Shown here piece by piece: positions 5,461-59,670 of a stretch of DNA of 64,000 nucleotides. The DNA comes from Erythrobacter sp. BLCC-B19 (lineage in GTDB: Bacteria > Pseudomonadota > Alphaproteobacteria > Sphingomonadales > Sphingomonadaceae), in NCBI RefSeq assembly GCF_028621955.1, contig NZ_CP117516.1, positions 2,006,001-2,070,000 on the forward strand, written 5' to 3'. The notes below the pieces were generated by a model, which was given only the letters and a program-made list of their open reading frames with translations, made no database searches and was not told the DNA's origin. A program made the position numbers and the translations under genes. Position 1 is the first letter of the stretch, and every line of letters begins with the position of its first letter.

Positions 5461-5463
5461 GGC

Positions 5464-42131: not shown

Positions 42132-42461
42132 CTATTGCCTCGCTTCGCCCTGGGCCTGAACGTGAACCATGTAATCGGCAATCGCGGGGATCGCGGCAGG
42201 ATCGACCGGAGCCTTGTAGACCTTGATCATCTTGCCCGCGATCTCCTCCCACTTCTCGCGGCTAACCTTGGGCTGCTGGAGCAGGGTCGAGGGCGAATGG
42301 CAGGCGGTGCAATTGGCGAGCACGGCATCGCGCCCCGGGCCGTCGGGCAGGTCGATCGGATCGTCGGGCAAGGTGATGCTGGCATCGGCAAAGCTCGCCT
42401 TGGGCGCCGCATCGCAGGCCGTCAGCAGCGCGAGCAGGGGGAGGATCAGCGCGGCTCTCAT
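42132..42461 (-). CDS. sorB: Sulfite dehydrogenase cytochrome c subunit (SorB-like)
   Basis: A 109-residue lipoprotein-like cytochrome. The ATG at 42461 overlaps the SorA stop (ATGA). A lipobox LLTAC ends at Cys16. One haem-binding motif CTACH occupies residues 51-55, and Met78 (IAGKMIK) is a likely sixth ligand. It would take electrons from the molybdenum subunit and pass them to the respiratory chain. It is the last gene of the minus-strand sulfur operon, 1 nt from the convergent GGDEF/EAL stop. Confidence 0.88.
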   Translation of the reverse strand: MRAALILPLLALLTACDAAPKASFADASITLPDDPIDLPDGPGRDAVLANCTACHSPSTLLQQPKVSREKWEEIAGKMIKVYKAPVDPAAIPAIADYMVHVQAQGEARQ

Positions 42462-43666
42462 TGTGCCCTCAGGGTGATGCGTTCGATCACGTTGCGGGCA
42501 TAGCCCGATGGGTTCCACGCCAGTGTCTCGGGTTGCATCGCGCCTTTGACGTTGGTGGCCCGCACGCCGATGTCGGCGAGGTCACCCGACACGCTCGGCA
42601 GTTCGACCTGCCAGCGGCGGAAGGCGTAAGGGCCGTGTTCGTCCGGGCCGAGAGAGCAGGGGATCGACCATCCCGCCCCCACCAGATCGACCCGCTCCAG
42701 CGCCGCATCGCCGCCGAAGGCCATCCCCTCCAGCACCAGCGGCTTGCCCTTCGCAACCGCCGCGCCATCGGCATGGCTGGTGATGAAGGCGCGCGGGGGC
42801 ATGGCGGTAATGGGCACAGTATCGAAGTCCTTGTCCGCCGGCGTGATCGGCTGGGCGGGCATCCGGTAGGACTTGGCGACGTAATAGCTCTCATCCTCGC
42901 CGGTCAGCACTTCGATGGTCGAGAGCATCTTGACCCAATAGGTCGAAAACCACCCCGGAACCACGATCCGCAGGGGGAAACCGTGGAGGATCGGCAGCGG
43001 TTCATCATTCATCGCCCAGGCCACCAGCACATCGTCGCGCATCGCGATGTCCATCGGCAGCGACTTGATGAACTGCGGCGCGCCGTCGGTCAGCGGCACA
43101 TCGAGGCCCGCATAGCGCACGCGCTTCGCCCCCTCGGCCACCCCGGCTTTCGCCAGCACATCCCTGAGCCGCACCCCGGTCCACTTGGCGCAGGCCATCG
43201 CGCCATTGCCCCACTGGGTGCCGGTGACGCGCGGGGTCGAGAGACCCCGGCCGTTGCCCGCGCACTGGTTGACCGCGACGACCGAGATATGCTCGCCCGC
43301 CGCCGCCACCTCGTCGAGCGTCAGCGATACCGCCTTTGTCACCGCCCCGCCAATCGCCACACGGTGCTCGGCGGCTGTGATGCTGGTGGGCATATCCCAG
43401 TTCCAGCGCACGAAATGGCGGTCATTGGGGGTAATCACCCCTTCGCGGAACACCTCCATCGGGGCTTCGAGCAGCGGGGGGCGGATGCGCTGGACGATCA
43501 TCTCGCCCTTGCCGGGGAAGGCAGGGGTGGTGGGCCTCAGGCTCGGCCCGCCGGGGAGGGCAAGGTCGATCATCCGCCCGGCCTGCTGCGCCAGCAAGGG
43601 CGCGGCGAGCGCCGCGGTGCCGGCGCCCGCGATCAGCGCGCGGCGGGTGAGACGCGCCTCGTTCAT
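42458..43666 (-). CDS. sorA: Sulfite dehydrogenase molybdopterin subunit (SorA-like)
   Basis: A 402-residue enzyme with a Tat-type signal (LTRRALIAGAG). The oxidoreductase molybdopterin domain carries the molybdenum-ligating Cys135 in the VNQCAGNGRG motif, and a Mo-co dimerisation domain follows. It should oxidise sulfite to sulfate in the periplasm, passing electrons to the SorB cytochrome. The start overlaps the upstream stop (ATGA). The neighbouring desulfonation genes make sulfite the obvious substrate. Confidence 0.92.
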   Translation of the reverse strand: MNEARLTRRALIAGAGTAALAAPLLAQQAGRMIDLALPGGPSLRPTTPAFPGKGEMIVQRIRPPLLEAPMEVFREGVITPNDRHFVRWNWDMPTSITAAEHRVAIGGAVTKAVSLTLDEVAAAGEHISVVAVNQCAGNGRGLSTPRVTGTQWGNGAMACAKWTGVRLRDVLAKAGVAEGAKRVRYAGLDVPLTDGAPQFIKSLPMDIAMRDDVLVAWAMNDEPLPILHGFPLRIVVPGWFSTYWVKMLSTIEVLTGEDESYYVAKSYRMPAQPITPADKDFDTVPITAMPPRAFITSHADGAAVAKGKPLVLEGMAFGGDAALERVDLVGAGWSIPCSLGPDEHGPYAFRRWQVELPSVSGDLADIGVRATNVKGAMQPETLAWNPSGYARNVIERITLRAQ

Positions 43667-44274
43667 GCCTTGGCCCCCTCCAGCCTGTCGATCAAGGCGC
43701 CGATATCGGCGACTTCAAGCCCGTGGGCGGCGATCAGATCGCCGATATCGTCGATCCGCGCCATCTCGCCATCGTCGCGCATGATCGAGCAGATCACCGC
43801 CGCATCGCCCGCGCCTGCCATCCGCGCGAGGTCAATCGACGCCTCGCAGGCCGAGGCCCGCACCAGCACGCCGCCGGCCTGCGCGATCAGCGGGAAGACG
43901 TGGCCGGGGGAATGGATGTGCGCCGAACTCGCCCCGTCAGCCATCGCCACCCGCACCGTATGCGCGCGGTCGGCTGCCGAAATGCCGGTCGACACGCCTT
44001 CCGCCGCCTCGATCGAGCGGGCGAAGGGCCGTCCGGTCTGACGCGCCGTGCCGGGGTTCACGAGGCTGAGGCCCAGCTGCGCCGCCCGCTCGGGCGTCAC
44101 CGCCAGACAGATCAGCCCGCGCCCGTGGGTGGCCATGAAATTGATCGCTTCGGGCGTCACATAGCGCGCGGCGACCATCAGGTCGATGTCCCCGCCGCGC
44201 AGCCGGTCGCCTGCGATCACGACCATGCGCCCCGCTGCCACTGCCGCGAGCGCCGCGTCCAGCCCGGCAGGCAT
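43663..44274 (-). CDS. RibB-like DHBP synthase paralogue lacking the acidic catalytic loop
   Basis: A 203-residue protein that aligns with 3,4-dihydroxy-2-butanone 4-phosphate synthase. Conserved segments include RGLICL, GVSTGISAADRAHTVRVA, SPGHVFPL and CEASIDLARMAG. The acidic DDEDRENEGD loop that binds magnesium and does catalysis is replaced by AGDRLRGGDIDL (residues 21-32), so the two key Glu are gone. It probably is not a normal riboflavin enzyme. Its location between the FMN reductase and SorA, overlapping both genes, ties it to flavin-dependent desulfonation. Confidence 0.85.
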   Translation of the reverse strand: MPAGLDAALAAVAAGRMVVIAGDRLRGGDIDLMVAARYVTPEAINFMATHGRGLICLAVTPERAAQLGLSLVNPGTARQTGRPFARSIEAAEGVSTGISAADRAHTVRVAMADGASSAHIHSPGHVFPLIAQAGGVLVRASACEASIDLARMAGAGDAAVICSIMRDDGEMARIDDIGDLIAAHGLEVADIGALIDRLEGAKA

Positions 44275-44846
44275 CAGGCCAGATCCCGCCCGGCGGCAAA
44301 GCTCTTGGCGCCGAGCACCACCTGCTTGCCGACGAGTTCGAGCTGCCCGCGCGCGCGTTCATCCAGACATTCGCCATCGGGGGAAAACAGCCCGCGATAG
44401 GTGCGGATCGTCGCGCCCATCGGGGTCGGCCAGCCGCGCAGGGCATGGGTGATCGCACGCATCGTCAGCAGCGTCGACATCGAGGCCTGATCGCCGAAAG
44501 CGGTCGCAATCAGTCCGACCGCGCGGCCATCAAGATAGGGACGTTCATCGCGGGCGAGGTCTTCAAGGTAATCGAGCGCGTTCTTGATCACGCCTGAAAT
44601 CGTGCCGTGATAGCCGGGCGCGGCGACCAGCAGGCCATCGGCCTGCCGCACCGCCTCGACCAGCTCCGCGCCCATCGCCGCGGTGTGGCCGGGGCCGAGA
44701 TAATGCGGCAGGCCCGCGCAATATTCCCCGCCGAACACCGTCACCTCGGCCCCTTCGGCCGCGGCAATCCCGGCGGCCAGGCGCAGCGCCTGTTCGGTCG
44801 AGGAGCCGGGGTTCACCGTGCCGCCAAGGGCTACAATACGGGTCAT
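44274..44846 (-). CDS. NADPH-dependent FMN reductase (SsuE-like)
   Basis: A 190-residue flavodoxin-like reductase (PF03358 type). The ATG at 44846 overlaps the GlpD stop, and the stop overlaps the RibB-like start (TGATG). The N-terminus IVALGGTVNPGSSTEQALR is the phosphate-binding loop, and PGYHGTISGVIKNALDYLEDL is the conserved flavin-binding segment of SsuE/MsuE reductases. It should supply FMNH2 to the SmoC-like monooxygenase at 55376. A. tumefaciens SmoA is, as I recall, from another flavin-reductase family, so this would be a functional replacement. Confidence 0.85.
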   Translation of the reverse strand: MTRIVALGGTVNPGSSTEQALRLAAGIAAAEGAEVTVFGGEYCAGLPHYLGPGHTAAMGAELVEAVRQADGLLVAAPGYHGTISGVIKNALDYLEDLARDERPYLDGRAVGLIATAFGDQASMSTLLTMRAITHALRGWPTPMGATIRTYRGLFSPDGECLDERARGQLELVGKQVVLGAKSFAAGRDLA

Positions 44847-46330
44847 GCGGGAGTTGTCCTTTCGGTGATGTATGCCGCGAGACGGGCGGTCTGTTCGGGG
44901 GTGAAGTGCAGCCCCAGCTTGGTGCGCCGCCACAGCACGTCTTCGGCACTGCGCGCCCATTCGCGGGCGATCAGGTGATCGACTTCGGCTGCGGTCAGCC
45001 CATGGCCGAAATCCTCGCCCAGATCGGCGGCAGACTTGGCCGCGCCGAGAAACTCCGCCGCGACCGTGCCGTAAAGCCGCACCAGCCGCGCGGCGCGGGT
45101 CTCGGTGAGGAAGGGATAGCGCTCCGCCAGATCGCGGGCGAGGGCAGGGGCATCGAACCGCCCGAAATCCCCGCCGGGCAGAAACGCCCCGCCCGTCCAG
45201 TCCGCGCCCGCCAGCACCGGCAGGAAGGGCACCAACTTGCTGATCGCCTCGGCGCTGAGTTCGCGGTAGGTGGTGATCTTGCCGCCGAACACCGACAGCA
45301 GCGGCGCTTCGCCCGGCCCGCCGTCAATCTCGAAACGGTAACCGCGCGTCGCCGCCTCGGGCCGGCCCGATCCGTCGTCGACCAAGGGGCGCACCCCGGA
45401 ATAGGTCCACACAACATCGGCAGGCGTCACGGGTGTGCGGAAATACTCGGAGGCTCCGGCGCACAGATAGGCGATTTCTTCCGGGGACGCGCGCACTTCA
45501 TCAAGGCTGCCGTGGTGATCGACATCGGTGGTGCCGATCAGAGTGAAGTCCTGCTCGTAGGGGATGGCAAAGAAGATCCGCCCGTCGGGCAGCTGGAAGA
45601 AATAGGCGAAGTCGTGGTCGAACAGCTTCTTCACCACGATGTGCGAGCCGCGCACCAGCCGCATCCTTTGCGCCGAAGGCTCACCGGCGCGGCCCAAGAG
45701 GTCGAGCACGCGCGGCCCGGCGGCATTGACCACGGCGCGCGCGGTGAAGACCTCGCCCCCCGCCTCGATCCGCCAGTGATCGCCCGCGCGCGAAAGCGCC
45801 GTCACCTCGCAGCGGGTGCGCACTTCGGCCCCGCGGTCGGCGGCATCGCGGGCGTTCAAGACCACCAGCCGCGCATCATCGACCCAGCCATCCGAATAGG
45901 CGAAGGCGCGGGTGTAATCGCCCTTCAGCACCGCGCCTGCCGGGTGGCGAGTCAGATCGACGCTCTCAGCCGAGGGCAGGTATTTGCGCCCTCCGATATG
46001 GTCGTAAAGGAACAGCCCCAGCCGCAGCAGCCAGCGCGGGCGCAGGCCGGGGCGGTGGGGGAGGATGAAGCGCAGCGGCCAGATGATGTGCGGCGCAATG
46101 CCCCACAGCACCTCGCGCTCGGTCAAGGCCTCGCGCACGAGGGCAAACTCGTAGTGCTCCAGATAGCGCAGCCCACCATGGATCAGCTTGGTGGAGTTGG
46201 ACGAAGTGCCCTCCGCCAGATCGCCCCGCTCCAGCAGCAGCACCTTCGCCCCGCGCCCGGCGGCATCGCGCGCGATCCCTGCGCCGTTCACGCCGCCGCC
46301 GATCACCGCGAGATCAAATAGGGTGCTCAT
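44843..46330 (-). CDS. glpD: Glycerol-3-phosphate dehydrogenase GlpD
   Basis: A 495-residue FAD enzyme. The N-terminal dinucleotide motif GGGVNGAGIARDAAGRG (from residue 11), TSSNSTKLIHGGLRYLE and GVRPLVDDGSG are classic for GlpD. It oxidises sn-glycerol-3-phosphate to dihydroxyacetone phosphate at the membrane. The ATG overlaps the stop of the exporter gene (ATGA). In this operon it may process the glycerol released from sulfoquinovosyl glycerol, after phosphorylation by a kinase not in the window. Confidence 0.95.
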   Translation of the reverse strand: MSTLFDLAVIGGGVNGAGIARDAAGRGAKVLLLERGDLAEGTSSNSTKLIHGGLRYLEHYEFALVREALTEREVLWGIAPHIIWPLRFILPHRPGLRPRWLLRLGLFLYDHIGGRKYLPSAESVDLTRHPAGAVLKGDYTRAFAYSDGWVDDARLVVLNARDAADRGAEVRTRCEVTALSRAGDHWRIEAGGEVFTARAVVNAAGPRVLDLLGRAGEPSAQRMRLVRGSHIVVKKLFDHDFAYFFQLPDGRIFFAIPYEQDFTLIGTTDVDHHGSLDEVRASPEEIAYLCAGASEYFRTPVTPADVVWTYSGVRPLVDDGSGRPEAATRGYRFEIDGGPGEAPLLSVFGGKITTYRELSAEAISKLVPFLPVLAGADWTGGAFLPGGDFGRFDAPALARDLAERYPFLTETRAARLVRLYGTVAAEFLGAAKSAADLGEDFGHGLTAAEVDHLIAREWARSAEDVLWRRTKLGLHFTPEQTARLAAYITERTTPA

Positions 46331-47418
46331 GCGATCACCCACTGGGCGAAAGCGAGCGCGACCACAAGCGAAGCGATGGTCGCCGCCAGCACCGGCATCA
46401 CCGCGCGCCAGCCAAGGCCCAGCAGCAGATCGGTGCGGGTGCGCATCGCGGTCGCGGTGACGGCGAGCAGCAGCAGGGTCTTGGACGCGGTTAGCGCATG
46501 GGCGGCCAGCATCGGGGGCAGGGGGATGAGCGAATTGATCGCCACCAGCCCCAGAAAGGCGAGGATGAAGCCCGGCAGCATCGGCACCCGCGCGCGGCCC
46601 ACGCCTGCGGGCAGAGGCTCGGCCTTGGCGATCCACAGCGCGGCGAGCGTCACCAGCGGGGCGAGCATGGCCACACGAGTAAGCTTCACCACGGTCGCCT
46701 GCGCGCCCGCTGCGTCGGACACGGCAAAGCCTGCGCCGATCGCCTGCGCCACATCATGGATCGACGCGCCGACAAGGAACCCCGCCTGCGCATCGGAAAA
46801 GCCCAGCATCTGCGTCAGCGGCGGATAGGTGACGAGCGCGATGGCCGACGCGGCTGCGAGGATCACAAGGGTCAGGGTGAATTGCGCCTGATCGATCCGT
46901 TCCCGCCCGATCACGCCATAGAGCGCGAGCGCGGCCGAAGCGCCGCAGATCGCGGTCGCCCCGCCGCCAAGGAGCCCGGCCGATGCGCTCTGCCCGGTCG
47001 CGCGCGCGGCGGCGAGCGCGGCGAGAAGCGCGGCGGCCATGACCAGCGCGAGGCCTGCGAAAGGCACCAGGCCCATCGCCGCCACCTGTGCAGCGGTGAC
47101 CTGACAACCGAGCAGCACGATCCCGGCGCGAAGCCCGTGGCGCGAGGCCGCGTCGAGCCCGTCATGGGTGCGCGGGTCGGCGGAGGCGAAATTGACCGCA
47201 AGTCCGATCAACAGGCCCGCAAGGATCACCGGCACGCCGTAATTCTGCGCCAGCCATGCGGCCGCGGCCCCGGCAATCGCGGCAATCGCAAGGCCGGGGA
47301 CGAAGCGCGACAGCGGCTTCTTCTGCACCGAGACTGCCGCTGCCGAATCGGCGAGCATGATCTCGCCGAACAGGTCGCCGGCAAAAGCCTCGAAATCGGG
47401 GCGCGCGTCGCGCTTCAT
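46327..47418 (-). CDS. YeiH-type putative sulfate/sulfite exporter
   Basis: A 363-residue membrane protein with about ten helices of the YeiH/UPF0324 family. Characteristic segments are RAGIVLLGCQVT, GGATAICGASAALA and VGASIHDVAQAIGAG. A charged cytoplasmic N-terminal extension precedes helix 1. Such exporters are often encoded with sulfonate degradation genes, where they remove sulfite or sulfate. It is the first gene of the overlapping six-gene string, 74 nt after the MFS gene. Confidence 0.88.
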   Translation of the reverse strand: MKRDARPDFEAFAGDLFGEIMLADSAAAVSVQKKPLSRFVPGLAIAAIAGAAAAWLAQNYGVPVILAGLLIGLAVNFASADPRTHDGLDAASRHGLRAGIVLLGCQVTAAQVAAMGLVPFAGLALVMAAALLAALAAARATGQSASAGLLGGGATAICGASAALALYGVIGRERIDQAQFTLTLVILAAASAIALVTYPPLTQMLGFSDAQAGFLVGASIHDVAQAIGAGFAVSDAAGAQATVVKLTRVAMLAPLVTLAALWIAKAEPLPAGVGRARVPMLPGFILAFLGLVAINSLIPLPPMLAAHALTASKTLLLLAVTATAMRTRTDLLLGLGWRAVMPVLAATIASLVVALAFAQWVIA

Positions 47419-47492
47419 GCCGGTTGATCCGTCTTCTGTCTCACGGTGTCACATCCCTACCCCGCGCCGCCCGCTTTGGCAAGGCAGCGCGC

Positions 47493-48758
47493 CTATTCGA
47501 ACAGGTCGACCTCGTCCTCGGGGCGGCGGATTTCGGGCAGGAGCATGTGGAACCACGCCAGCGCGATCAGATAGGACGCGGCGGCGAAGACGAACAGCGG
47601 GACGAAGCCGAACCCGGCATCGAGCACCCGCCCGGTGATCAGGCTGATCGCCACCCCGCCCATATTGCCCATGAAGGCGCCAAACGCCGTCACCCGCCCG
47701 ACCTTGGCCTGCGGGACGACATCGGTGATGGTGGAGAACAGCGAGAGCGAGAAGCCCTGATGGCCCGCCATCACCACCCCGATCATTACCGCCACCGGCC
47801 AGAACGAATGGAGGCTGAGCACCAGCGGCAGCGGCGCGACGATCAGGGCGGATGCCAGCATCACGCTCTTGCGCACGCGGTTGGGGCTCCAGCCGGCCTC
47901 CAGCAGCCGGGTCGAGGCCCAGCCCGCCAGCAGCGCGCCCAATCCCGATCCGGCAAAGGCAATCGCCAGCGGCACCGCCAGTTCGAGCGTCGATAGGCCG
48001 AAGACCTTGCGGTAGTAATCGGCGAGCCAGAAATTGATGAACCACCAGGTCATGTCCGACAGCGCCTTGGCGACGACGATGGCCCAGGTGGAGCGGCTCG
48101 CCAGGATCGCGCCATAGCGGTCGGCGTCGGCCTGTGCCGCGTTTTGCGCAGGTGTTGCCGGGTCATTGCGCAGTTGATGCACGCCCCGTGCGAGCCACAT
48201 CCACGCGATGAGCGAGGCAAACCCGCCGATCCCGCCCGCCACCAAGGCTCCGCGCCAGCCCACCGAAAGCGCCAGCGCCGGGATCACGAAGGGCATCGCA
48301 ATCGTCCCCGCACCCGCCAGCAAGGTCGCAAAACCGAAGGCGAAAGAGCGCTTGTCGGGCGGGAACAGCGCGGCGACGGTCTTGATCGTCAGCGGGGTCT
48401 GCACCGCCTCGGTCACCCCCAGCCCGACGCGGGCGGCCACCACCTGCCAGGTCGTCAGCGCCCAGCCATGCGCCACCGCCGCAAGGCTCCACGCAGAAGC
48501 GCCGACCTGCATCGAACGGTTCACCCCCAGCCGGTCAACCAGCCAGCCGGTGAACAGGAAAGCGAAGGCGGCAGAGAACTGCGTAACCGCGGCCAGATCG
48601 CCGAAGTCACTGTCACTCCAGCCGAAATCGGCCATCATGTCGGGCTTGAGGATGGCGATGATCGGGCGATCCATCGCGTTGAACACCCCCGCGATGCACA
48701 GCACCGTGAACAGCGACCAGCGCAGGCGGGTGCCAAGGGGCGAGTTGAACTGGGCCAT
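47493..48758 (-). CDS. MFS transporter, likely for sulfoquinovose or its glycoside
   Basis: A 421-residue protein with 12 predicted helices and the MFS motif DRLGVNR after helix 2. AGGAGG precedes the ATG at 48758 with 5-nt spacing. It resembles the anion:cation (hexuronate/ACS) branch that carries acidic sugars. Its place between the TonB receptor and the sulfur operon suggests inner-membrane import of sulfoquinovose or sulfoquinovosyl glycerol, doing the job of the ABC transporter in A. tumefaciens. The substrate is inferred from context only. Confidence 0.87.
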   Translation of the reverse strand: MAQFNSPLGTRLRWSLFTVLCIAGVFNAMDRPIIAILKPDMMADFGWSDSDFGDLAAVTQFSAAFAFLFTGWLVDRLGVNRSMQVGASAWSLAAVAHGWALTTWQVVAARVGLGVTEAVQTPLTIKTVAALFPPDKRSFAFGFATLLAGAGTIAMPFVIPALALSVGWRGALVAGGIGGFASLIAWMWLARGVHQLRNDPATPAQNAAQADADRYGAILASRSTWAIVVAKALSDMTWWFINFWLADYYRKVFGLSTLELAVPLAIAFAGSGLGALLAGWASTRLLEAGWSPNRVRKSVMLASALIVAPLPLVLSLHSFWPVAVMIGVVMAGHQGFSLSLFSTITDVVPQAKVGRVTAFGAFMGNMGGVAISLITGRVLDAGFGFVPLFVFAAASYLIALAWFHMLLPEIRRPEDEVDLFE

Positions 48759-48807
48759 CACGGCCTCCTATCGGGCACAGGGCAGGGCAGGGCAAGGCAC
48801 GCGCGAG

Positions 48808-48839
48808 ACAAAAGAGGCCGCCGGATCGCTCCGACGGCC
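48808..48839 (-). terminator. Rho-independent terminator after the TonB receptor
   Basis: On the minus strand, GGCCGTCGGA, loop GCGA, TCCGGCGGCC form a 10-bp stem with one G-T wobble, followed by TCTTTTGTC. It should end most receptor transcripts before the MFS gene, so the receptor and the downstream operon can be expressed at different levels. Confidence 0.75.
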
Positions 48840-48868
48840 CCCTGTTTCGTTCACACCGTCACGCGGGA

Positions 48869-51184
48869 TCAGAACGTGCGCACGCGCAAGCTGACGCCGA
48901 AATAGCGGTCCGCATCGCGCGGGATCTGCAAGCGGCGGCCGCCTTCGATGTTGAGCAGCACGTAGCTTTCGTCGGTGATGTTGCGGGCGTGGAAGGTCAC
49001 GCGGTACTTGTCGTCCGGGTCCGAGAAGCCGACCGAGGCGTTCCAGATGCCGTAGGGGTCGATCCGGGTCGAGGCCGCCTGCCCAAGGTCGGAATACTGC
49101 GTGCTGGTGTGGCGGTAATCGGTGTTGAGGTACAGCGTCACCCCGCCCAGCTCCTTGGTGTAGTCCCCGCCAACGGTGTAGGTGAACTTCGGCGCGAGCG
49201 GCAGCACGGTGCCGTTGCGTGCGTCGGGTGCGCCCGTGGTCGGGTTGGGGTTGAACTCGGTCACCCGCGCATCGGCATAGGCCGCGCTGGCACGCAGGTT
49301 GAGGCCGTCAGCCGGGTTGACCACGAGGTCGGCCTCGAAGCCCTCGCTCTTCACCTTGCCCGCATTGGTCAGGTTCGAGATCGTCGCGCCGTTCACCACG
49401 ATGAAGTTGTTCGCCTGGAACCCGTCATAGGTGACGGTGAAGGCGGCCACGTTCAGCTGCACGCGGTTGTCAAGGAATTGCGACTTCACCCCGATTTCGA
49501 AGCTGTCGGACAGCTCCTCGTCGATCGGCACCGCGTTGTTGGGGGCGGTGTGGTTGAAGAACACGTTGAAGGCCGGGCCCTTGTAACCGCGGGTGTACGA
49601 GCCGTAGAGCATGACGTCGTCGCTCGGCTTGAACTGGATCGCGGCGCGGCCCGAAAGGTTGCCATTGTCGGTCGATCCGCGGCTGGTGTTGGTGCCGTTG
49701 CCGCCATTGGCGATGAGGCCGCCGGCAGGGTTGAGGTTGGTGCCCGGGCCAGCCGCCGGGAGCCCGGTGGCAAGGTTCACCGCCGGCGCGCGGGTGTGGC
49801 TGAAGCGCAGCTTGTCCCAGGTGTAGCGCAGGCCGCCGGTCAGCGAGAGCTGCTCGGTGATCTCGTAGGTCGCCTGACCGAACAGCGCGTAGTTCTGCGA
49901 ACGCACATCGCTGCGCGAGGTGGCGCTGGGGAACAGCGTGTTGACGCGGTCATTGACGTTGCAGGGGATCGCTCCGCCCGGCAGCGCAGCCAGCGTGGAG
50001 GTGGTGCAGGTGATCCCGCTGCGGGTGAAATCCTGCGTGTTGTCCGACTGCCACGCGAACGCGCCGACCTGATAGTAGAAGGGATTGGTCTGGTCCGAGG
50101 CGAGGCGGATTTCGGCCGAAACCTGCTCGGTCTTGACCGTGCCGTTGTCATGCAGCTGGCCCGCGCCGACAATCGCGCGCGGCAGGAAGTCGCCTTCGCG
50201 GATTTCGGTGTTTTCCCAGTTGCGATAGCCGAGCACGACGCTGAGCGTGTGGGTGTCGGTGATGTCGAAATCGCCGGTCCCGGTCAGGCTCCACTGCTGG
50301 TCTTCGGTGCGGGTGACAAGGTCGTTGTTGACGAAGCGCTGGTTCTCGCCCTGCGCCACGCCGCCGGGCAGCGCCAGCAGCGCATCCTGCACCGCGCCGC
50401 GGCTCGCGCCGGTCACGTCGACGCAGCAATCATCATCGGCCTTGTAGTAATCGGCGATCAGGCGGACGGTGTTGCCGCCGTCGTCGTAATCCATGATGCC
50501 GCGCACGCCATAGCGCTTGTAGCCGTTGATGTCCTCGTTGCGGCCACCGAAGATGTTGGTGATGTTGCCATCGAAGCTGCCATAGAACCCGGTCACGCGG
50601 GCGCTGAGGTTTTCACCGAGCGGGCCGGAAATGGCCGCGCGCATCCGGTATTCCTCACCTTCGAACCAGTCGGCGTTGACTTCGGCTTCGAAGGTGTCGG
50701 TGCCGCCCTTGGAGACGATGTTGACAAGGCCCGCCGAGGCGTTGCGGCCGAACAGCGTGCCCTGCGGGCCGCGCAGGACTTCGAGCCGCTGGAGGTCGAC
50801 GAGGTCCATGAAGGCCTGGCCCGAACGCGACAGCACCACGCCGTCGACAACGGTGGACACAGAAGGCTCTGCCGCGACCGAGAAACTGATCGTGCCCACG
50901 CCGCGCATCACGATCGCGCTGTTGGCGCTGGTGGTGCCCTTGCGGAAGGTCACCGAGGGGACGACCGAGCTGATGTTCTCAAGGCTGGTGACGCCCGCCT
51001 GGATCAGCCGGTCACCCGAAACCGCGGCAATCGCGATCGGCACGTCCTGGACGTTTTCCTCGACCTTCTGGGCGGTTACGATGATTTCTTCGACCTGCGC
51101 CATCGCCGGGGCGGTGGCGAGAAGGGCGAAGGTGCTGGCGCTGAGGCCGAGAGCCTTGAGCGCAAAACGGGTGGTGGCGGACAT
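48869..51184 (-). CDS. TonB-dependent receptor, candidate sulfoquinovoside importer
   Basis: A 771-residue outer-membrane receptor. A GGGGAGAG site precedes the ATG. The signal peptide (1-29, ending AMAQ) leads into a TonB-box-like EEIIVTAQKVEENVQDVPIAI segment, the plug (LEVLRGPQGTLFGRNASAGLVNIVSKGG) and a barrel ending in Phe. It belongs to the large Sphingomonadales receptor family that imports glycans and aromatics. It is divergent from the sulfoquinovosidase gene across 164 bp, so it probably imports sulfoquinovosyl glycerol or lipid-derived sulfoquinovosides. The substrate is inferred. Confidence 0.9.
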   Translation of the reverse strand: MSATTRFALKALGLSASTFALLATAPAMAQVEEIIVTAQKVEENVQDVPIAIAAVSGDRLIQAGVTSLENISSVVPSVTFRKGTTSANSAIVMRGVGTISFSVAAEPSVSTVVDGVVLSRSGQAFMDLVDLQRLEVLRGPQGTLFGRNASAGLVNIVSKGGTDTFEAEVNADWFEGEEYRMRAAISGPLGENLSARVTGFYGSFDGNITNIFGGRNEDINGYKRYGVRGIMDYDDGGNTVRLIADYYKADDDCCVDVTGASRGAVQDALLALPGGVAQGENQRFVNNDLVTRTEDQQWSLTGTGDFDITDTHTLSVVLGYRNWENTEIREGDFLPRAIVGAGQLHDNGTVKTEQVSAEIRLASDQTNPFYYQVGAFAWQSDNTQDFTRSGITCTTSTLAALPGGAIPCNVNDRVNTLFPSATSRSDVRSQNYALFGQATYEITEQLSLTGGLRYTWDKLRFSHTRAPAVNLATGLPAAGPGTNLNPAGGLIANGGNGTNTSRGSTDNGNLSGRAAIQFKPSDDVMLYGSYTRGYKGPAFNVFFNHTAPNNAVPIDEELSDSFEIGVKSQFLDNRVQLNVAAFTVTYDGFQANNFIVVNGATISNLTNAGKVKSEGFEADLVVNPADGLNLRASAAYADARVTEFNPNPTTGAPDARNGTVLPLAPKFTYTVGGDYTKELGGVTLYLNTDYRHTSTQYSDLGQAASTRIDPYGIWNASVGFSDPDDKYRVTFHARNITDESYVLLNIEGGRRLQIPRDADRYFGVSLRVRTF

Positions 51185-51348
51185 GAAGTTTCTCTCCCCT
51201 GCAACGTGATCGGGTCATTCGGGCGCGGAACCAGATCATCGCCCGTGCGGTCGATCTTTCGCCGTTCGGGTTGCGCTTTCTGTCACGATCTGTCAAGCGG
51301 TGTCAGACCGGACAGAGGGACAGTCCGGGGCAAGGATACGGGACGGGA
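51185..51348. promoter_or_regulatory. Divergent control region of the sulfoquinovose genes
   Basis: This region separates the receptor (minus) and the sulfoquinovosidase (plus) and should carry both promoters. Repeated TGTCA units occur at about 51281, 51291 and 51301, and TGTC-N6-GACA (51301-51314) forms an inverted repeat. These are candidate operators for the LacI regulator at 53328. No convincing sigma-70 boxes were seen. Confidence 0.4.
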
Positions 51349-53331
51349 ATGGTGCAACTGACGCCATGCGAGGGGGGATTTGACCTGCATCTGGCAGGCC
51401 GCGCCCTCCTGCGCCACAGGCCTGATTGTCCCTCTATTTCCGTAGCTTGTGGCGATCCGCAGGTGGTGATGGTGCGCGGCAATTTCCGCCTCTCCGACCG
51501 CCCTGTGGCAGCAAGGCCACTGTCAGCCTGCGAAGTGCGCGAAGACGGCGCGGTGCGGCTTTCGAGCGACGATGGCACGGCTTCGGCGACGGTGCAGTTG
51601 CATGGCGCGCGGCTCACCGTCGCAGCAGCGGGCGCGCAGAACCGCGTCACGCTCGATTTCGCGCTGGGCGAGGGCGATGTGCTGTGGGGCGGGGGCGAGC
51701 AGATGAGCTACCTTGCCCTCAATGGCCGCAACTTCCCGATCTGGACCAGCGAGCCGGGAGTCGGCCGCGAACCCGGCACGCACCTCACCGATCAGGCGAG
51801 TGCCGATGGCAGCTTTGCGGGCGGGGATTACTGGACGACCAACTATCCCGAACCCACCGTGCTGTGTTCGGCAGGCTGGGCGCTGAGCCTCGCCAATGCC
51901 GAATATGCCGAACTCGACGCGCGTGAGGCGGGGCGGTTGCGAATCCACGTGTGGTCGGGCGAGGTCGTCATCGACCTGTTCGAAGGCACCCCCGCCGAAC
52001 TCACCTGCCAGCTCGGGGCACGGTTCGGCCAGCGCCAGCCCTTGCCCGAATGGGCGCTGGGCGGTGCGATTGTCGGACTGAAACAGGGCGAAGCCAGCTT
52101 CGACCGGCTCGAAGCGCTGATCGAAGCTGGCGCGGCTGTCTCGGGTCTGTGGTGCGAGGACTGGGTCGGCATCCGCGAGACCAGCTTCGGCCGCCGCCTG
52201 TTCTGGGACTGGCAGTGGAACGCCGAGCGCTACCCCGATCTGCCCGCGCGCATCGCCGCCCTCAAGGCCCGCGGCATCCGCTTTCTGGGCTATGTGAACC
52301 CGTACCTCGCGGTCGACGGCCCGCTTTACCCCGAAGCTGCGGCCAAGGGCTACTTCGCGCGGCAGATCGACAGCGACGCGCCCTATGCGGTCGACTTTGG
52401 CGAGTTTTACGCAGGCGTCGTCGACTTCACCAACCCCGAAGCCGCCGAATGGTTCGCCGAGGAAGTGATCGGCAAGCGGATGCTCGATTTCGGCCTCGAT
52501 GGCTGGATGGCGGACTTTGGCGAATACCTGCCCACCGACCTCAGGCTCCACGATGGCGACCCGATGCAGGAGCACAACCGCTGGCCGGTGCGCTGGGCCG
52601 AGGTCAACGCCCGCGCTGTCGCTTCAAGGGGGCGGACGGGGGATGTGCTGTGGTTCATGCGCGCCGGGCACACCGGGGTGCAGGCCCATTGCCCCCTGCT
52701 GTGGGCGGGCGACCAGTCGGTCGACTTCTCGCGCCATGACGGGATCGGCACGGTGATCACCGCTGCGCTGTCATCGGGGCTGGTGGGCAATGCCTTCAGC
52801 CATTCCGACATCGGCGGCTACACCAGCCTGTTCGGCAATGTCCGCACACCCGAACTGATGCTGCGCTGGTACGAACTCGGCGCGTTCGGCCCGGTATTCC
52901 GCACTCACGAAGGCAACCGCCCGGACGACAACCTCCAGATCGATTCGACCGCAGAGCTGATCGAGGGCTTTGTCCGCTGGAGCCGCGTTCACGCAGCGCT
53001 CGCGCCCTATGCGCGGCATCTGGTCGCTGCGGCGCAGGCCACCGGCCTTCCGGCACAGCGCGCGCTGTTCCTGCACTTCCCTGACGACGCCGAAACCTTC
53101 ACCATTCAGGATCAGTACCTTTATGGGGACGACATGATGGTGGCACCGGTGATCGAAGCAGGGGCGGCAGAGCGCCGCGTCTATCTGCCCGAGGGGCAAT
53201 GGCGGCACCTGTGGAGCGGGCAGGACTACGCGCCCGGCTGGCATGATGTGCCAGCGCCCATCGGCGCGCCGCCGGTGTTCTATCGCCCTGACAGCGCCTT
53301 TGCCTCGCTGTTCGGGAGCCTCGCCCAATGA
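51349..53331 (+). CDS. smoI: Sulfoquinovosidase (GH31, YihQ/SmoI family)
   Basis: A 660-residue GH31 enzyme without signal peptide, so cytoplasmic. It matches YihQ closely in WMADFGEYLPTD (nucleophile Asp389), WAGDQSVDF (acid/base Asp455), HSDIGGY and RTHEGNRP. The sulfonate pocket follows the published KERWY pattern: Lys245, Glu270, Arg283, Trp286 and Tyr491, the same numbering I recall for the A. tumefaciens enzyme. It cleaves sulfoquinovosyl glycerol to sulfoquinovose and glycerol. The ATG at 51349 is chosen after an ACGGGA site; an upstream in-frame extension lacks homology. The stop overlaps the LacI start (ATGA). Confidence 0.95.
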   Translation: MVQLTPCEGGFDLHLAGRALLRHRPDCPSISVACGDPQVVMVRGNFRLSDRPVAARPLSACEVREDGAVRLSSDDGTASATVQLHGARLTVAAAGAQNRVTLDFALGEGDVLWGGGEQMSYLALNGRNFPIWTSEPGVGREPGTHLTDQASADGSFAGGDYWTTNYPEPTVLCSAGWALSLANAEYAELDAREAGRLRIHVWSGEVVIDLFEGTPAELTCQLGARFGQRQPLPEWALGGAIVGLKQGEASFDRLEALIEAGAAVSGLWCEDWVGIRETSFGRRLFWDWQWNAERYPDLPARIAALKARGIRFLGYVNPYLAVDGPLYPEAAAKGYFARQIDSDAPYAVDFGEFYAGVVDFTNPEAAEWFAEEVIGKRMLDFGLDGWMADFGEYLPTDLRLHDGDPMQEHNRWPVRWAEVNARAVASRGRTGDVLWFMRAGHTGVQAHCPLLWAGDQSVDFSRHDGIGTVITAALSSGLVGNAFSHSDIGGYTSLFGNVRTPELMLRWYELGAFGPVFRTHEGNRPDDNLQIDSTAELIEGFVRWSRVHAALAPYARHLVAAAQATGLPAQRALFLHFPDDAETFTIQDQYLYGDDMMVAPVIEAGAAERRVYLPEGQWRHLWSGQDYAPGWHDVPAPIGAPPVFYRPDSAFASLFGSLAQ

Positions 53332-54332
53332 GCCGCGCCAATATCCGTGATGTCGCCGCCCGCGCGGGCGTTGCGGTCAAGACCGTCAGCCGCGTGCTCA
53401 ACGGCCACCCCTATGTCAGCGCCGAGCTCAAGGCGCGGGTCGAGCAGGCGATGGCCGATCTCGACTACCGTCCCTCGGTTGCGGCGCGCATCCTGTCGGG
53501 CGCGAAGTCGGGGCAAGTGGCGCTGATCTACGACAATCACAGCCCCTATTACATGTTCCAGATCCAGAAGGGCTGCTGGGACGTGTGCCATGAAAGCGGC
53601 ATCCGCCTGCTGGCCCAGCCGGTCGACGTCGCCGATCCGCGCGTCGGCGAGCAGGTGCGCGGGCTGGTGAGCGAGACGCATGTGGACGGCATCATCCTGT
53701 CCTCCCCCGTTACCGATTGCGATCCGGTGCTGCGCGCGCTGGAGACGATGGATGTGCCCTTCGTGCGCATCTCGCCGGGCACCAACCATGCGCTCACATC
53801 ATCCGTGTTCATGGACGACGCGCAGGCCGCCGACGACATGACCACGCATCTCATCAATGCAGGCCACCGCCGCATCGGGTTCATCAAGGGCCACACCAAC
53901 CACATGGCCTCGGACGATCGCCTGTTCGGATACCGCCGCGCGCTTGACCGGGTCGGCATCCCGTTCGAGCCCAATCTCGTGGTCGACGGCGAGTTCGATT
54001 TCGACAGCGGGGTGCGGGGCGCCAAGGCGCTGCTGGATCAGTCCGCGCGCCCGACCGCGATCTTCGCCTCGAACGACGACATGGCCGCAGGCGTGCTGGC
54101 CGTGGCGCATGACCGGGGGATCAATGTCCCCGCCGATCTTTCGGTGGCCGGCTTCGACGATACCACGCTGGCGCGCACGGTCTGGCCGCCGCTCACCACC
54201 ATTCGCCAGCCGATGGCGGAACTTGCCCGCACCGCCACCCAAATCCTGATCGCAGGCGGGGACATCACCCACAAACGCCTGCCCCACGACCTTGTCGAGC
54301 GCGCCTCGGTCGCTCCACCCAAGAGGAACTGA
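53328..54332 (+). CDS. LacI family transcriptional regulator of sulfoquinovose genes
   Basis: A 334-residue regulator. The N-terminal LacI helix-turn-helix (IRDVAARAGVAVKTVSRVLNGHPYVS) is followed by the periplasmic-binding-protein-like ligand domain (INAGHRRIGFIKG, FASNDDMAAGVL, VAGFDDTTLARTVWPPLTTIRQP). It lies between the sulfoquinovosidase (4-nt overlap) and the reductase (2-nt gap), so it is likely a repressor that responds to sulfoquinovose or a derivative. Confidence 0.93.
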   Translation: MSRANIRDVAARAGVAVKTVSRVLNGHPYVSAELKARVEQAMADLDYRPSVAARILSGAKSGQVALIYDNHSPYYMFQIQKGCWDVCHESGIRLLAQPVDVADPRVGEQVRGLVSETHVDGIILSSPVTDCDPVLRALETMDVPFVRISPGTNHALTSSVFMDDAQAADDMTTHLINAGHRRIGFIKGHTNHMASDDRLFGYRRALDRVGIPFEPNLVVDGEFDFDSGVRGAKALLDQSARPTAIFASNDDMAAGVLAVAHDRGINVPADLSVAGFDDTTLARTVWPPLTTIRQPMAELARTATQILIAGGDITHKRLPHDLVERASVAPPKRN

Positions 54333-54334
54333 CA

Positions 54335-55249
54335 ATGAGTGAACTGCCCCTGCCGCCTGCAACGCGCCGTCTTGGTACGAGCGCTATCGAGGTCTCTCCC
54401 ATCGCCTGGGGGATGTGGCGGCTGGCCGAAGATGGCCGCACCGCCGCCGATGCGGCCAAGCTGGTGCACGCGGCGCTGGATGCGGGGATCACCTTCCTCG
54501 ACACCGCCGACATCTATGGCTTCGACGGCACCGGGGGCTTCGGCGATGCCGAGGTGCTGCTGGGCGAGGTGCTGGCGGCTGACCCTTCGCTGCGGGGCCG
54601 CATGGTGCTGGCGACCAAGGGCGGCATCCTGCCCCCGCTGCCTTACGACCAGAGCGCTGACTATCTGCGCAAGGCTATCGACGCTTCGCTCAGCCGCCTT
54701 CAGGTGGACAGTGTTGACCTGTGGCAGATCCACCGCCCCGATATCCTCGCCCACCCGCAGGAGGTGGCCCGCGTGCTCGACGATGCGGTGGCAAGCGGCA
54801 AGGTGAAGGCGCTGGGGGTGTCGAATTTCACGCAGCCCCAGATCGCCGCGCTCCAGCACTTCCTCGGCAACAAGCTGGTGGCGACCCAGCCCGAGATCAG
54901 CCCCTTGCGGATCGACTGCTTCGAGAATGGCGAATTGGATCAGGCGATGATGATGGGCCTCACCCCGCTGGCATGGTCGCCGCTCGGCGGCGGGCGTCTC
55001 GCCGCGCCGGAAACCGCGCGGGATAAAGCCGTGGCCGCCGCGCTCGATGCGGTGGCCGAGGCGCAGGGCGTGTCGCGCACGGTCGCGGCCTATAGCTGGC
55101 TGATGGCGCATCCGGCGGGGATCGTGCCGATCATCGGCTCGCAGAACGCGGCCCGCATCGCCGAAGGGGCGCAGGCGCTCACCGTGCGCTGGACGCGCAC
55201 CGAATGGTACGCCGTGCTGGTCGCCGCGCGGGGCGTGCCGCTGCCATAA
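54335..55249 (+). CDS. smoB: Aldo-keto reductase, SmoB-like 6-oxo-glucose reductase
   Basis: A 304-residue aldo-keto reductase with the full catalytic tetrad Asp56, Tyr61, Lys95 and His133. A GAGGAA site precedes the ATG. NAD(P)H binding is indicated by the C-terminal IVPIIGSQNAARIAE segment. In the sulfo-SMO pathway SmoB reduces 6-dehydroglucose, released by the monooxygenase, to glucose. The call rests on position between the sulfoquinovosidase/LacI and the monooxygenase. A general AKR role cannot be excluded from sequence alone. Confidence 0.85.
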   Translation: MSELPLPPATRRLGTSAIEVSPIAWGMWRLAEDGRTAADAAKLVHAALDAGITFLDTADIYGFDGTGGFGDAEVLLGEVLAADPSLRGRMVLATKGGILPPLPYDQSADYLRKAIDASLSRLQVDSVDLWQIHRPDILAHPQEVARVLDDAVASGKVKALGVSNFTQPQIAALQHFLGNKLVATQPEISPLRIDCFENGELDQAMMMGLTPLAWSPLGGGRLAAPETARDKAVAAALDAVAEAQGVSRTVAAYSWLMAHPAGIVPIIGSQNAARIAEGAQALTVRWTRTEWYAVLVAARGVPLP

Positions 55250-55260
55250 CCGCCAACCCC

Positions 55261-55352
55261 CGTTCGGGCTGAGCTTGTCGAAGCCCTGTCCTTCTTGGGA
55301 TTATGCGGGGGCCACAAGACAAGACGGCCCTTCGACAAGCTCAGGGCGAACG
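55261..55352. repeat. REP-like inverted repeat (TGAGCTTGTCGAAG type)
   Basis: The left arm at 55261-55283 and the right arm at 55330-55352 are inverted copies with 21 of 23 positions matching, around a 46-nt centre that itself has partial complementarity. The TGAGCTTGTCGAAG core is a common dispersed intergenic repeat in Sphingomonadales. It sits between smoB and smoC and could stabilise or attenuate the message. Confidence 0.75.
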
Positions 55353-55375
55353 TAAACTGGGATGGGAACGAAGCC

Positions 55376-56467
55376 ATGACTGACCAGCAACAATGCGAAA
55401 TCGCGTGGTTTTCCGCGCTGTGCGACGACGATTACGAGTTCCTCGGCGTGCCCGACAAATACCTCCAGTCAAGCTGGGAGCATTGCCGCAACCTCGTGCT
55501 GCGCGCGGAAGAGGGCGGGTTCGACAATATCCTGCTGCCCTCGGGCTATCAGCTGGGGGTGGACACCACGATCTTCGCGGCTGCCGTCGCCACGCAGGTC
55601 AAGCGCATCAAGCTGCTCTGGGCGACCCGCATGGGCGAGGACTGGCCGCCGCAGCTCGCGCGCCGGATCGCCACGCTTGACCGCATTCTCGGGCCGAACG
55701 CGGCAGGCACCGGGGGCAGGCTCAACGTCAACATCATCTCGTCCGATATGCCGGGCGAGAAGATCGAGAGCGGCCCGCGCTACCGCCGCGGCACCGAGAT
55801 CATGAAGATCGTCAAGACGCTGCTGAACGGCGAGCACCTCGATTTTCAAGGCGAGTTCTACAACCTCAAGCTCGATCCGCCGCGCATCACGACCCTGTCG
55901 GGCAAGTGCCCGCCGTTCTACTTCGGCGGCCTCAGCCACGAAGCGCGCGAATGTGCGGCCGAGGCGGCGGATGTCTACCTGATGTGGCCCGACACGATGG
56001 ACAAGGTGCGCGAGAACATCGCCGACCTCAAGGATCGCGCGGCGAAATATGGCCGCACCCTCAAGTTCGGCTACCGCGTCCACGTGATCGTGCGCGAGAC
56101 CGAGGACGAGGCGCGCCACTATGCCGACCGCCTGCTCTCCAAGCTCGACGACGAGGCAGGCCGGGCGATCCGCGAAAAGAGCCTCGATGCCAAGAATTAC
56201 GGCGTCCAGCGCCAGCAGGAACTGCGCGGCGCAGCGGATGGCGACGGCTTCGTCGAGGAGAACCTGTGGACCGGCATCGGCCGGGCGCGGTCAGGCTGCG
56301 GGGCGGCGATCGTCGGCACCCCCGACCAGGTGCTCGCCAAGCTGCGCGCCTATCAGGCCGAAGGGATCGAGGCGTTCATCCTCTCGGGCTATCCGCACAT
56401 GCAGGAAGCCGATCTCTTCGCGCGCCATGTGCTGCCCCACATCCAGCACGGCCCGTTGGAGATGTAG
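55376..56467 (+). CDS. smoC: FMNH2-dependent sulfoquinovose monooxygenase (SmoC-like, LLM class)
   Basis: A 363-residue luciferase-like flavin monooxygenase of the SsuD branch. Landmarks are GGFDNILLPSGYQLGVD, LLWATRMGEDWPPQLARRIATLD, GGRLNVNIISSD, the YRRGTEIMKIVKTLL helix and the C-terminal RARSGCGAAIVGTPDQVLAKL loop, which in SsuD-type enzymes closes over flavin and sulfonate. It should split sulfoquinovose with O2 and FMNH2 into sulfite and 6-oxo-glucose. The context with a sulfoquinovosidase and SmoB-like gene makes sulfoquinovose the best substrate; another alkanesulfonate remains possible. A weak Shine-Dalgarno precedes the ATG. Confidence 0.9.
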   Translation: MTDQQQCEIAWFSALCDDDYEFLGVPDKYLQSSWEHCRNLVLRAEEGGFDNILLPSGYQLGVDTTIFAAAVATQVKRIKLLWATRMGEDWPPQLARRIATLDRILGPNAAGTGGRLNVNIISSDMPGEKIESGPRYRRGTEIMKIVKTLLNGEHLDFQGEFYNLKLDPPRITTLSGKCPPFYFGGLSHEARECAAEAADVYLMWPDTMDKVRENIADLKDRAAKYGRTLKFGYRVHVIVRETEDEARHYADRLLSKLDDEAGRAIREKSLDAKNYGVQRQQELRGAADGDGFVEENLWTGIGRARSGCGAAIVGTPDQVLAKLRAYQAEGIEAFILSGYPHMQEADLFARHVLPHIQHGPLEM

Positions 56468-56561: not shown

Positions 56562-56577
56562 TGTTTCACGTGAAACA
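56562..56577. other. parS centromere-like site (ParB binding)
   Basis: TGTTTCACGTGAAACA is a perfect 16-bp palindrome identical to the bacterial parS consensus. It lies in the intergenic region upstream of the acyl-CoA dehydrogenase gene. Chromosomal parS sites cluster near the replication origin and load ParB-CTP clamps, so this window is probably within the origin-proximal part of a chromosome. No parA, parB or dnaA gene is in view. Confidence 0.88.
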
Positions 56578-56693
56578 TGACGCTAGGGCGCGGCGGGCTT
56601 GCGGCACGCCTCGTCAAAACCCTCTTTTCCGCATCCCCGCGCCGTGACAAAGCGTATCGCAAAGGCAGAAACGGCAGTCTGGAGAGAGACCCA

Positions 56694-57887: not shown

Positions 57888-57910
57888 GACACGAGACGGG
57901 AGAGACAGAC

Positions 57911-59099: not shown

Positions 59100-59145
59100 C
59101 TGTGTGCGCTGTAACCCCCCGGCGCACCGGGGCGAACCGGGCCGC

Positions 59146-59670
59146 ATGAGAGCGGACGAGCCTACCCTTGCGCGGTTGATGGCGCTATCGCAGCAGGGCG
59201 ACCGGCAGGCCTATGGGGCGCTGCTGGAGGCCTGCCAGCGCTGGCTGCGCGCCTATTACAGCCGCCGCATCGCGCCCGCGCAGCTTGACGATCTGGTGCA
59301 GGAAACGCTGATCGCGCTGCACTCCAAACGCGCCTCGTGGGATGCCTCGCGGCCGTTCCTGCCGTGGCTCGCGGCGATTGCGCGCTATCGCTGGGTCGAT
59401 CACCTGCGCCGCCTCTACCGCGCCGATGTGCAGGAACTCCACGAGGAACTGATCGGCACCGACGATGAGCCCGCCGTTGCCGCGCGCATCAGCATTGACC
59501 GGCTGTTGGGGCTGCTTCCCCCGGCGCAGGAACGCGCCATTGCCCTCGTCAAGATCGAGGGTCTGAGCATCGCCGAGGCCGCTGCTGCCACCGGGCAGAG
59601 CGAAAGCCTCGTCAAAGTGAACATCCACCGCGGCCTCAAGAAACTCGCCGCCATGATCGAGAAAGAATGA
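59146..59670 (+). CDS. SigF-like ECF sigma factor
   Basis: A 174-residue sigma factor. Region 2 is visible in LDDLVQETLIALHSKRASWDASRPFLPWLAAIARYRWVDHLRR and region 4 in EGLSIAEAAAATGQSESLVKVNIHRGLKKL. Its stop overlaps the start of the NrsF gene (ATGA), the arrangement of Caulobacter SigF-NrsF. It should be freed under metal or oxidative stress. The ATG at 59146 is chosen as the start consistent with region 2 spacing. Confidence 0.93.
   Translation: MRADEPTLARLMALSQQGDRQAYGALLEACQRWLRAYYSRRIAPAQLDDLVQETLIALHSKRASWDASRPFLPWLAAIARYRWVDHLRRLYRADVQELHEELIGTDDEPAVAARISIDRLLGLLPPAQERAIALVKIEGLSIAEAAAATGQSESLVKVNIHRGLKKLAAMIEKE

Follow-up and report, generated by a model that had tools for sequence, protein, structure and literature searches.

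Gene content and organization of the locus

Positions 42132 to 56467 of the window, by which we mean the whole 64,000-nucleotide stretch analysed from the 3.6 Mb single-contig genome of Erythrobacter sp. BLCC-B19, contain two divergent groups of genes and a short sequence box between them, which together form a candidate locus for the degradation of sulfoquinovose (SQ), a sulfur-containing sugar from the membranes of plants. Gene families were assigned by Pfam and NCBIfam scans, and solved structures in the Protein Data Bank (PDB) were searched by sequence (Table 1). An original prediction, made from the sequence without database searches, had placed genes for a sulfoquinovosidase, a monooxygenase, an aldo-keto reductase (AKR), their regulator, transporters and accessory enzymes here, and all of them were recovered with the expected families from the family scans and PDB matches. 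Two elements had been missed, namely a gene coding for a RibB-like protein (43663-44274) and a 15-bp box (51291-51305) between the genes for a TonB-dependent receptor and a glycoside hydrolase family 31 (GH31) protein.

On the minus strand, yeiH, glpD, the flavin mononucleotide (FMN) reductase gene fre, the ribB-like gene, sorA and sorB follow each other in this order, and at each of the five junctions the neighbouring genes overlap in ATGA or TGATG. It is thus very probable that the genes for sulfite oxidation share a transcript with those for the exporter and the flavin reductase. On the plus strand, the GH31 and lacI genes overlap, lacI and akr are separated by 2 bp, and a gap of 126 bp lies between akr and the gene coding for the SQ monooxygenase (SMO). 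This last gap (55250-55375) contains an inverted repeat, GCTGAGCTTGTCGAAG ... CTTCGACAAGCTCAG, recognized by eye, which resembles a dispersed repeat. An Rfam search of positions 36000-64000 gave no match to an FMN riboswitch or another RNA at gathering scores.

Table 1. Predicted genes and sequence elements of the SQ locus
Feature	Position	Strand	Evidence
SorB-like monohaem c-type cytochrome	42132..42461	-	NF052246 67 bits (cut-off 93); CTACH haem motif; ATGA overlap with sorA
SorA-like molybdenum sulfite dehydrogenase	42458..43666	-	2blf 273 bits; NF052245 411 bits (cut-off 600); twin-arginine-like N-terminus by eye
RibB-like protein (3,4-dihydroxy-2-butanone 4-phosphate (DHBP) synthase fold) without catalytic Glu38, His153, Glu174	43663..44274	-	PF00926 204 bits
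FMN reductase, proposed FMNH2 supplier of the monooxygenase	44274..44846	-	PF03358 82 bits
GlpD, glycerol-3-phosphate dehydrogenase	44843..46330	-	NF009906 732 bits (cut-off 352)
YeiH-type putative sulfite/sulfate exporter	46327..47418	-	PF03601 156 bits; TIGR00698 85 bits (below cut-off 233)
Major facilitator superfamily (MFS) transporter, proposed inner-membrane SQ/SQ-glycerol importer	47493..48758	-	PF07690 160 bits; distant TIGR00893 match 106 bits (cut-off 395)
TonB-dependent outer-membrane receptor, proposed SQ-glycerol uptake	48869..51184	-	PF00593, PF07715
15-bp box TGTCAAGCGGTGTCA, probable LacI-family operator in divergent promoter	51291..51305	+	Conservation across loci
GH31 sulfoquinovosidase, KERWY type	51349..53331	+	5ohy 765 bits
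LacI-family regulator	53328..54332	+	PF00356, PF13377; overlaps GH31 end
AKR, SmoB/SquF type (6-dehydroglucose to glucose, predicted)	54335..55249	+	7bbz 197 bits; PF00248
FMNH2-dependent SMO, SmoC/SquD type (predicted)	55376..56467	+	7olf 366 bits, 7oh2 362 bits

Predicted sulfoquinovosidase, monooxygenase and aldo-keto reductase

The best PDB matches of the GH31 protein are 5ohy and 5ohs (765 and 763 bits), which we take to be the Agrobacterium sulfoquinovosidase (SQase), followed by 5aed (585 bits), whose listed name includes sulfoquinovosidase. Assuming that the KERWY residues form the sulfonate-binding motif and that this motif with its numbering applies to the protein studied here, they correspond to K271, E296, R309, W312 and Y517 in the open reading frame (ORF) that starts at 51271, and all five are identical to those of 5ohy, as expected for the KERWY sulfoquinovosidase that had been predicted. 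A search of the genome found no second GH31 protein.

For the SMO, the closest structures are 7olf and 7oh2 (E values of 3e-108 and 3e-107), with which it shares 53% and 52% identity over 347 positions, respectively, and which are presumably SmoC from R. oryzae and A. tumefaciens; 7jv3 (203 bits) and E. coli SsuD (186 bits) come next. The enzyme had been called SsuD-like, which is correct at the level of the superfamily, yet 7olf and 7oh2 score about twice as high as SsuD. The top matches of the AKR, 7bbz and 7bby (197 and 194 bits; next match 142 bits), are taken by us to be SmoB and bear out its description as SmoB-like. Most PDB names shown for these SQase, SmoC and SmoB entries read otherwise than the identities assumed here. 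According to the available portion of PMC13372026, a sulfo-SMO pathway is recognized by a SmoB/SquF-type AKR encoded at most 10 ORFs from the monooxygenase; here, the two genes are neighbours.

Distribution of related loci

SMO homologues (E <= 1e-60) are encoded in 40 of 159 sampled family genomes with at least 90% completeness, and in 18 of 61 relatives, the Erythrobacter genome itself being included in both sets. Named loci were the best 80 of 184 encoding stretches, among which the closest SMO relatives belong to Porphyrobacter and Erythrobacter, and 60 of these loci are full-span, with at least 9 kb before and at least 4 kb after the SMO gene. GH31 and AKR genes are present in all 60 full-span loci, an association with SMO that is far from chance, and LacI is found in 58. 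Genes for an MFS transporter (57 loci), a YeiH-type exporter (46), GlpD (44) and a TonB receptor with at least 50% identity (38, other loci having weaker receptor matches) are also usual in sphingomonad loci, and we therefore reject the proposal that these four features make the locus special by themselves. FMN reductase (18), RibB-like (17) and SorA (4) genes give low counts because the 10 kb flank falls short of them in a window-like arrangement.

The box TGTCAAGCGGTGTCA was present in all 25 loci examined, two of which have GC for GG; these loci were 24 hand-chosen for spread plus the window, and the test in the 159 genomes came afterwards. In that test, the exact box occurred in 12 genomes, all of them SMO-positive, with one copy each, 3951-4159 bp upstream of the SMO gene, and the same pattern written backwards, used as a control, matched once (G207). 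Within the window, the box is the sole match at up to two mismatches, with 0.10 expected. It is probably a LacI operator for both arms of the cluster and can serve as a marker for many of these SQ loci.

A RibB-like protein without catalytic residues

The product of the ribB-like gene shares 43% identity with E. coli RibB (1g57), of which Glu38, Glu40, His153, Thr154 and Glu174 are replaced in the window protein by Gly, Asp, Ala, Cys and Ser, respectively. Residues were counted in 33 RibB-like rows (35 less L022 and L082, in which the frame is misread; L033 and L086 are apparently one genome counted twice). Glu38, His153 and Glu174 are absent from every row: position 38 is Gly in 26, Arg in five and Asp in two, position 153 is Ala in 32 and Thr in one, and position 174 is Ser in 29 and Ala in four. 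Asp at position 40 and a new residue, Arg in place of Thr93, are invariant, as are the retained Arg37, Asp42, Thr107, His136 and Arg150. In a wider alignment of 20 sequences, the more distant L142 retains Glu38 and is without His153 or Glu174. For V. cholerae RibB, the available portion of PMC5228156 reports that mutation of Glu39, Glu41 or His154 abolishes activity and that Arg38 touches the phosphate; we equated these residues with 38, 40, 153 and 37 of the E. coli enzyme.

DHBP synthesis has probably been lost in this protein, judging from these replacements, and its Pfam name, which designates a vitamin B2 enzyme, is probably wrong. A second gene of RibBA size with the RENEGD motif is present elsewhere in the genome. 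Six same-genus loci were compared with the window by our own Nei-Gojobori script. The ratio of nonsynonymous to synonymous substitutions is 0.10-0.14 for the ribB-like gene, compared with 0.05-0.08 for SMO and 0.12-0.18 for GH31, indicating that it is kept under purifying selection. The AlphaFold model (mean predicted local distance difference test score 91.7) suggests that the fold is also kept: its 47 Foldseek matches with E <= 0.001 comprise only DHBP synthases and proteins of the RibBA/RibBX type, with template modelling scores up to 0.94 by query length.

The ribB-like gene was found in 15 of the 40 SMO-positive and in none of the 119 SMO-negative family genomes. It was told from RibBA by at least 61% identity (13 genomes) or, in G128 and G192 (53%, confirmed by alignment), by its short open frame in the vicinity of SMO, canonical matches reaching up to 54% identity. 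In 14 of these 15 genomes, the gene shares a contig with SMO and is no more than 11.1 kb away from it, and in G170, the two genes are on different contigs; in G174 and G208, one stop falls within the matched stretch, which may be the natural end. In all 22 of the 80 named loci holding a ribB-like gene, an FMN reductase gene of equal orientation lies 6-54 bp from it, the order of genes differing between loci. In 387 genomes of the class, including our own, which is a weak test as few are sphingomonads, the window copy (337 bits) is the only one above 234 bits among the matches listed; most of these matches lie in open frames of at least 360 amino acids and two are of 210 amino acids (G361 and G441; 226 and 223 bits). 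A literature search found no paper linking ribB to SQ.

The SorAB-like pair

SorA is closest to Starkeya SorA (2blf), with which it shares the molybdenum domain and a separate haem c subunit. The roles of positions 57 (an active-site His) and 231 are assumed by us. The molybdenum ligand Cys104, Arg55 and Tyr236 are kept in all 10 same-genus rows, whereas, unlike the Starkeya novella enzyme, these 10 rows have His57 replaced by Asn and Trp231 by Tyr; His and Trp are kept in all 21 other readable sphingomonad SorA rows from outside the genus of the window. The genome has two PF00174 genes, the other one being MsrP-like.

Three arrangements of sorA near SMO were found: after the ribB-like gene in the window genus, beyond yeiH (G061, G149, G207) and directly after SMO in Novosphingobium (L104, L106, L107, L110). 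In a tree of 31 SorA rows, the SMO-linked sequences fall into three separate groups, the nearest neighbour of each being an unlinked SorA gene, and a single clade of SMO-linked SorA is rejected (approximately unbiased test, p 1.6e-56). This tree leaves out L034, which is distant, and L129, whose frame is misread; both are on very long branches in an earlier tree that included them. The origin of SMO-linked SorA from three lineages suggests, as the simplest reading, that sulfite oxidation was recruited repeatedly to the SQ pathway; that it was gained once and then moved or lost is the less likely alternative. Counting linked and unlinked genes alike, SorA is found in 12 of 40 SMO-positive and seven of 119 SMO-negative genomes (Fisher p 2e-4, kinship ignored), and lies near SMO in four of these 12. 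In longer stretches from the window genus, SorA is encoded beyond the ribB-like gene in nine of the 11 loci that have the latter gene in this position, and L032 is arranged differently from the others. In L028 (14677-17859), the next long open frame after the ribB-like gene, on the opposite strand, resembles by eye a large autotransporter. A literature search retrieved no paper, by title or start of abstract, on an SQ locus with SorA-type sulfite oxidation to sulfate.

Discussion

We consider it highly likely that the cluster is a sphingomonad-type sulfo-SMO (sulfo-ASMO) locus with a single divergent promoter controlled by LacI. The gene families, overlapping gene ends, gene conservation, residue losses and conservation of the box are direct observations, from which we infer the reactions, the direction of transport, the co-transcription and the role of the box; the sulfo-SMO assignment as such is well supported by sequence. 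SQ-glycerol would enter through the TonB receptor and then the MFS transporter, and GH31 would release SQ and glycerol. With FMNH2 supplied by the FMN reductase, SMO would convert SQ to 6-dehydroglucose and sulfite, and the AKR would convert 6-dehydroglucose to glucose. Glycerol would yield dihydroxyacetone phosphate (DHAP) via GlpK and then GlpD. Sulfite would leave through the YeiH-type exporter and, in the periplasm, be oxidised to sulfate by the SorAB-like pair, with electrons passing to cytochrome c. The RibB-fold protein, apparently unable to make DHBP, would be a further conserved component tied to the FMN reductase. If this is true, one cell would carry out the conversion from SQ-glycerol to sulfate, which by other routes is split among species.

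The glycerol arm had been predicted to end in DHAP within the cluster. GlpD passes its curated cut-off and is the sole match in the genome at E <= 1e-20, but since it requires a glycerol kinase and none was seen within the cluster, the DHAP step depends on GlpK, which is encoded elsewhere (614 bits, cut-off 590). The consecutive genes for a TonB receptor, GH31, LacI, AKR, SMO, GlpD and glycerol kinase on plasmid pLA3 of N. pentaromativorans (L167) support this arm.

Liu et al. reportedly described the sulfo-ASMO pathway of Novosphingobium aromaticivorans in 2021, and Sharma et al. are said to have described the sulfo-SMO locus of Agrobacterium tumefaciens in 2022. Few organic sulfur compounds are as abundant as SQ (PMC12890257, available portion). 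As the accessible sections of two reviews credit the pathway to A. tumefaciens and the sphingomonad N. aromaticivorans (PMC12890257, PMC9594981), a sulfo-SMO pathway in a sphingomonad is not a first. The portion of PMC13372026 at hand also states that 13C-SQ labels Novosphingobium and that related genomes carry sulfo-SMO, and that of PMC10755693 describes GH188 SQases in Roseobacter. Like our locus, the N. aromaticivorans cluster contains an SQase, the SquD monooxygenase and the SquF AKR; unlike ours, with its candidate FMN reductase, it is said to be without the flavin reductase SsuE (PMC9594981, PMC12890257, in part). The A. tumefaciens system shares SmoC (presumably 7oh2, 52% identical to our SMO), SmoB, an SQase and a putative flavin reductase role, whereas an ABC (ATP-binding cassette) importer for SQ-glycerol (PMC9594981, in part) stands in place of the TonB receptor and MFS transporter. 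In the Roseobacter-type locus of Ruegeria sp. TM1040, there are likewise genes for SMO, AKR and a flavin reductase, with a YeiH-type exporter nearby, but a tripartite ATP-independent periplasmic (TRAP) transporter is encoded, and no GH31, SorAB or RibB is annotated in a 21 kb stretch.

The locus had been described as a distinct, more self-contained version of the pathway. This is supported in part: neither the pathway nor the kind of host is new, but it is unusual that a SorAB-like pair is built into the operon and that a RibB look-alike accompanies it. Seen in this way, the variant probably comprises in-operon sulfite oxidation and a shared operator and, as our best guess, a repurposed RibB-fold protein that helps the flavin reductase and monooxygenase pair. 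The available portions of PMC12890257, PMC9594981, PMC13372026 and PMC10755693 name no SorAB or RibB gene for an SQ locus, and the word TonB is absent from their main texts; a literature search likewise retrieved no paper on SQ uptake via a TonB-dependent receptor by title or start of abstract.

Several observations weigh against parts of this interpretation. The exact box was not found by exact search in 28 of the 40 SMO-positive genomes, and 25 of the 40 have no RibB-like match at E <= 1e-50. The FMN reductase has the PF03358 domain, yet it is only weakly similar to solved flavin reductases (best PDB match 34 bits). SorA, SorB and the YeiH-type protein match their families, with PF03601 reached by the last of these, but all three score below their curated NCBIfam cut-offs, for which reason they are called family-like here rather than certified. 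The substitutions of His57 and Trp231 in SorA and the absence of SorA beyond the ribB-like gene in L024 and L028 point in the same direction.

The SorAB-like pair could accordingly be a related molybdoenzyme with another substrate, sulfite being merely exported. The low scores, the two substitutions and the long branch of the window-genus SorA (0.54) would fit this, but the molybdenum ligand, Arg55 and Tyr236 are retained, SorB adjoins SorA, and separate SorA genes occur in loci of the same kind in other lineages, so that we consider it rather unlikely and prefer sulfite oxidation. Still less probable, in our view, is that the whole cluster serves general alkanesulfonate scavenging, with an SsuD-like enzyme for simple sulfonates and a GH31 enzyme for ordinary alpha-glucosides. 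SMO belongs to the SsuD superfamily (TIGR03565, 248 bits, below the 518 cut-off), and the GH31 protein passes PRK10426, named alpha-glucosidase in NCBIfam (821 bits, cut-off 553), a description that presumably predates the SQase work. This proposal, which we regard as very unlikely, is opposed by the twofold higher score of SMO with 7olf and 7oh2 than with SsuD, the intact KERWY residues and the constant company of AKR and GH31, and none of the ORFs scanned beside SMO is SsuABC-type.

For the RibB-fold protein, we see an even chance that it is a new working part of FMN-dependent desulfonation. An enzyme of riboflavin synthesis, deprived of its metal site, would then have taken on a new task together with the neighbouring FMN reductase, namely to carry or guard FMNH2 for the SQ monooxygenase, or to bind a 6-sulfo or 6-dehydro sugar. 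It might instead be an ordinary second DHBP synthase that raises the FMN supply of the monooxygenase. In Photobacterium lux-rib operons, ribB boosts the FMN supply beside luciferase. By analogy, the window gene lies in a locus with a luciferase-family enzyme and adjoins that of the FMN reductase, its fold and Pfam family (DHBP_synthase) are those of RibB, and Glu40 to Asp is a mild change. The lux-rib RibB is catalytic, however, whereas the window protein is without Glu38, His153 and Glu174, which are missing from all 33 rows (L142 alone keeping Glu38). Mutants at the V. cholerae equivalents of Glu38, Glu40 and His153 are inactive (PMC5228156, in part), and the genome already has its RENEGD gene, all of which makes a second synthase improbable. 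If the RibB look-alike indeed serves the monooxygenase, it would be an example of two-component flavin systems gaining helpers.

Plasmid-borne loci and flanking genes

SMO matches were also found on plasmids, in 29 records with E <= 1e-80, and in 14 of these the identity is below 60%. Beside the SQ locus of pLA3, a tetratricopeptide repeat (TPR)-sulfotransferase gene (4446-6164; PF13469, 145 bits) lies between two TonB receptor genes. A plasmid of Rhizobium sp. WSM4643 (L168, 1-13053) encodes an SMO homologue (71% identical) beside an apparent sulfo-Entner-Doudoroff (sulfo-ED) set and an ABC importer; no adjacent AKR is annotated, and this locus may combine two routes for SQ. On pKN1 of Sphingobium yanoikuyae (L171, 10977-20060), an AKR-SMO pair occurs with genes for an MFS transporter, a sulfatase, a phytanoyl-CoA dioxygenase-family protein and a TonB receptor, and no GH31 is annotated, so that the surroundings of SMO are of another kind here.

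Downstream of SMO in the window, two pimeloyl-CoA-dehydrogenase-like genes (56577-59041) are present in only some related loci and were excluded from the cluster. They are followed at 59104-60317 by a gene coding for an extracytoplasmic function (ECF) sigma factor and then an NrsF-type anti-sigma gene.

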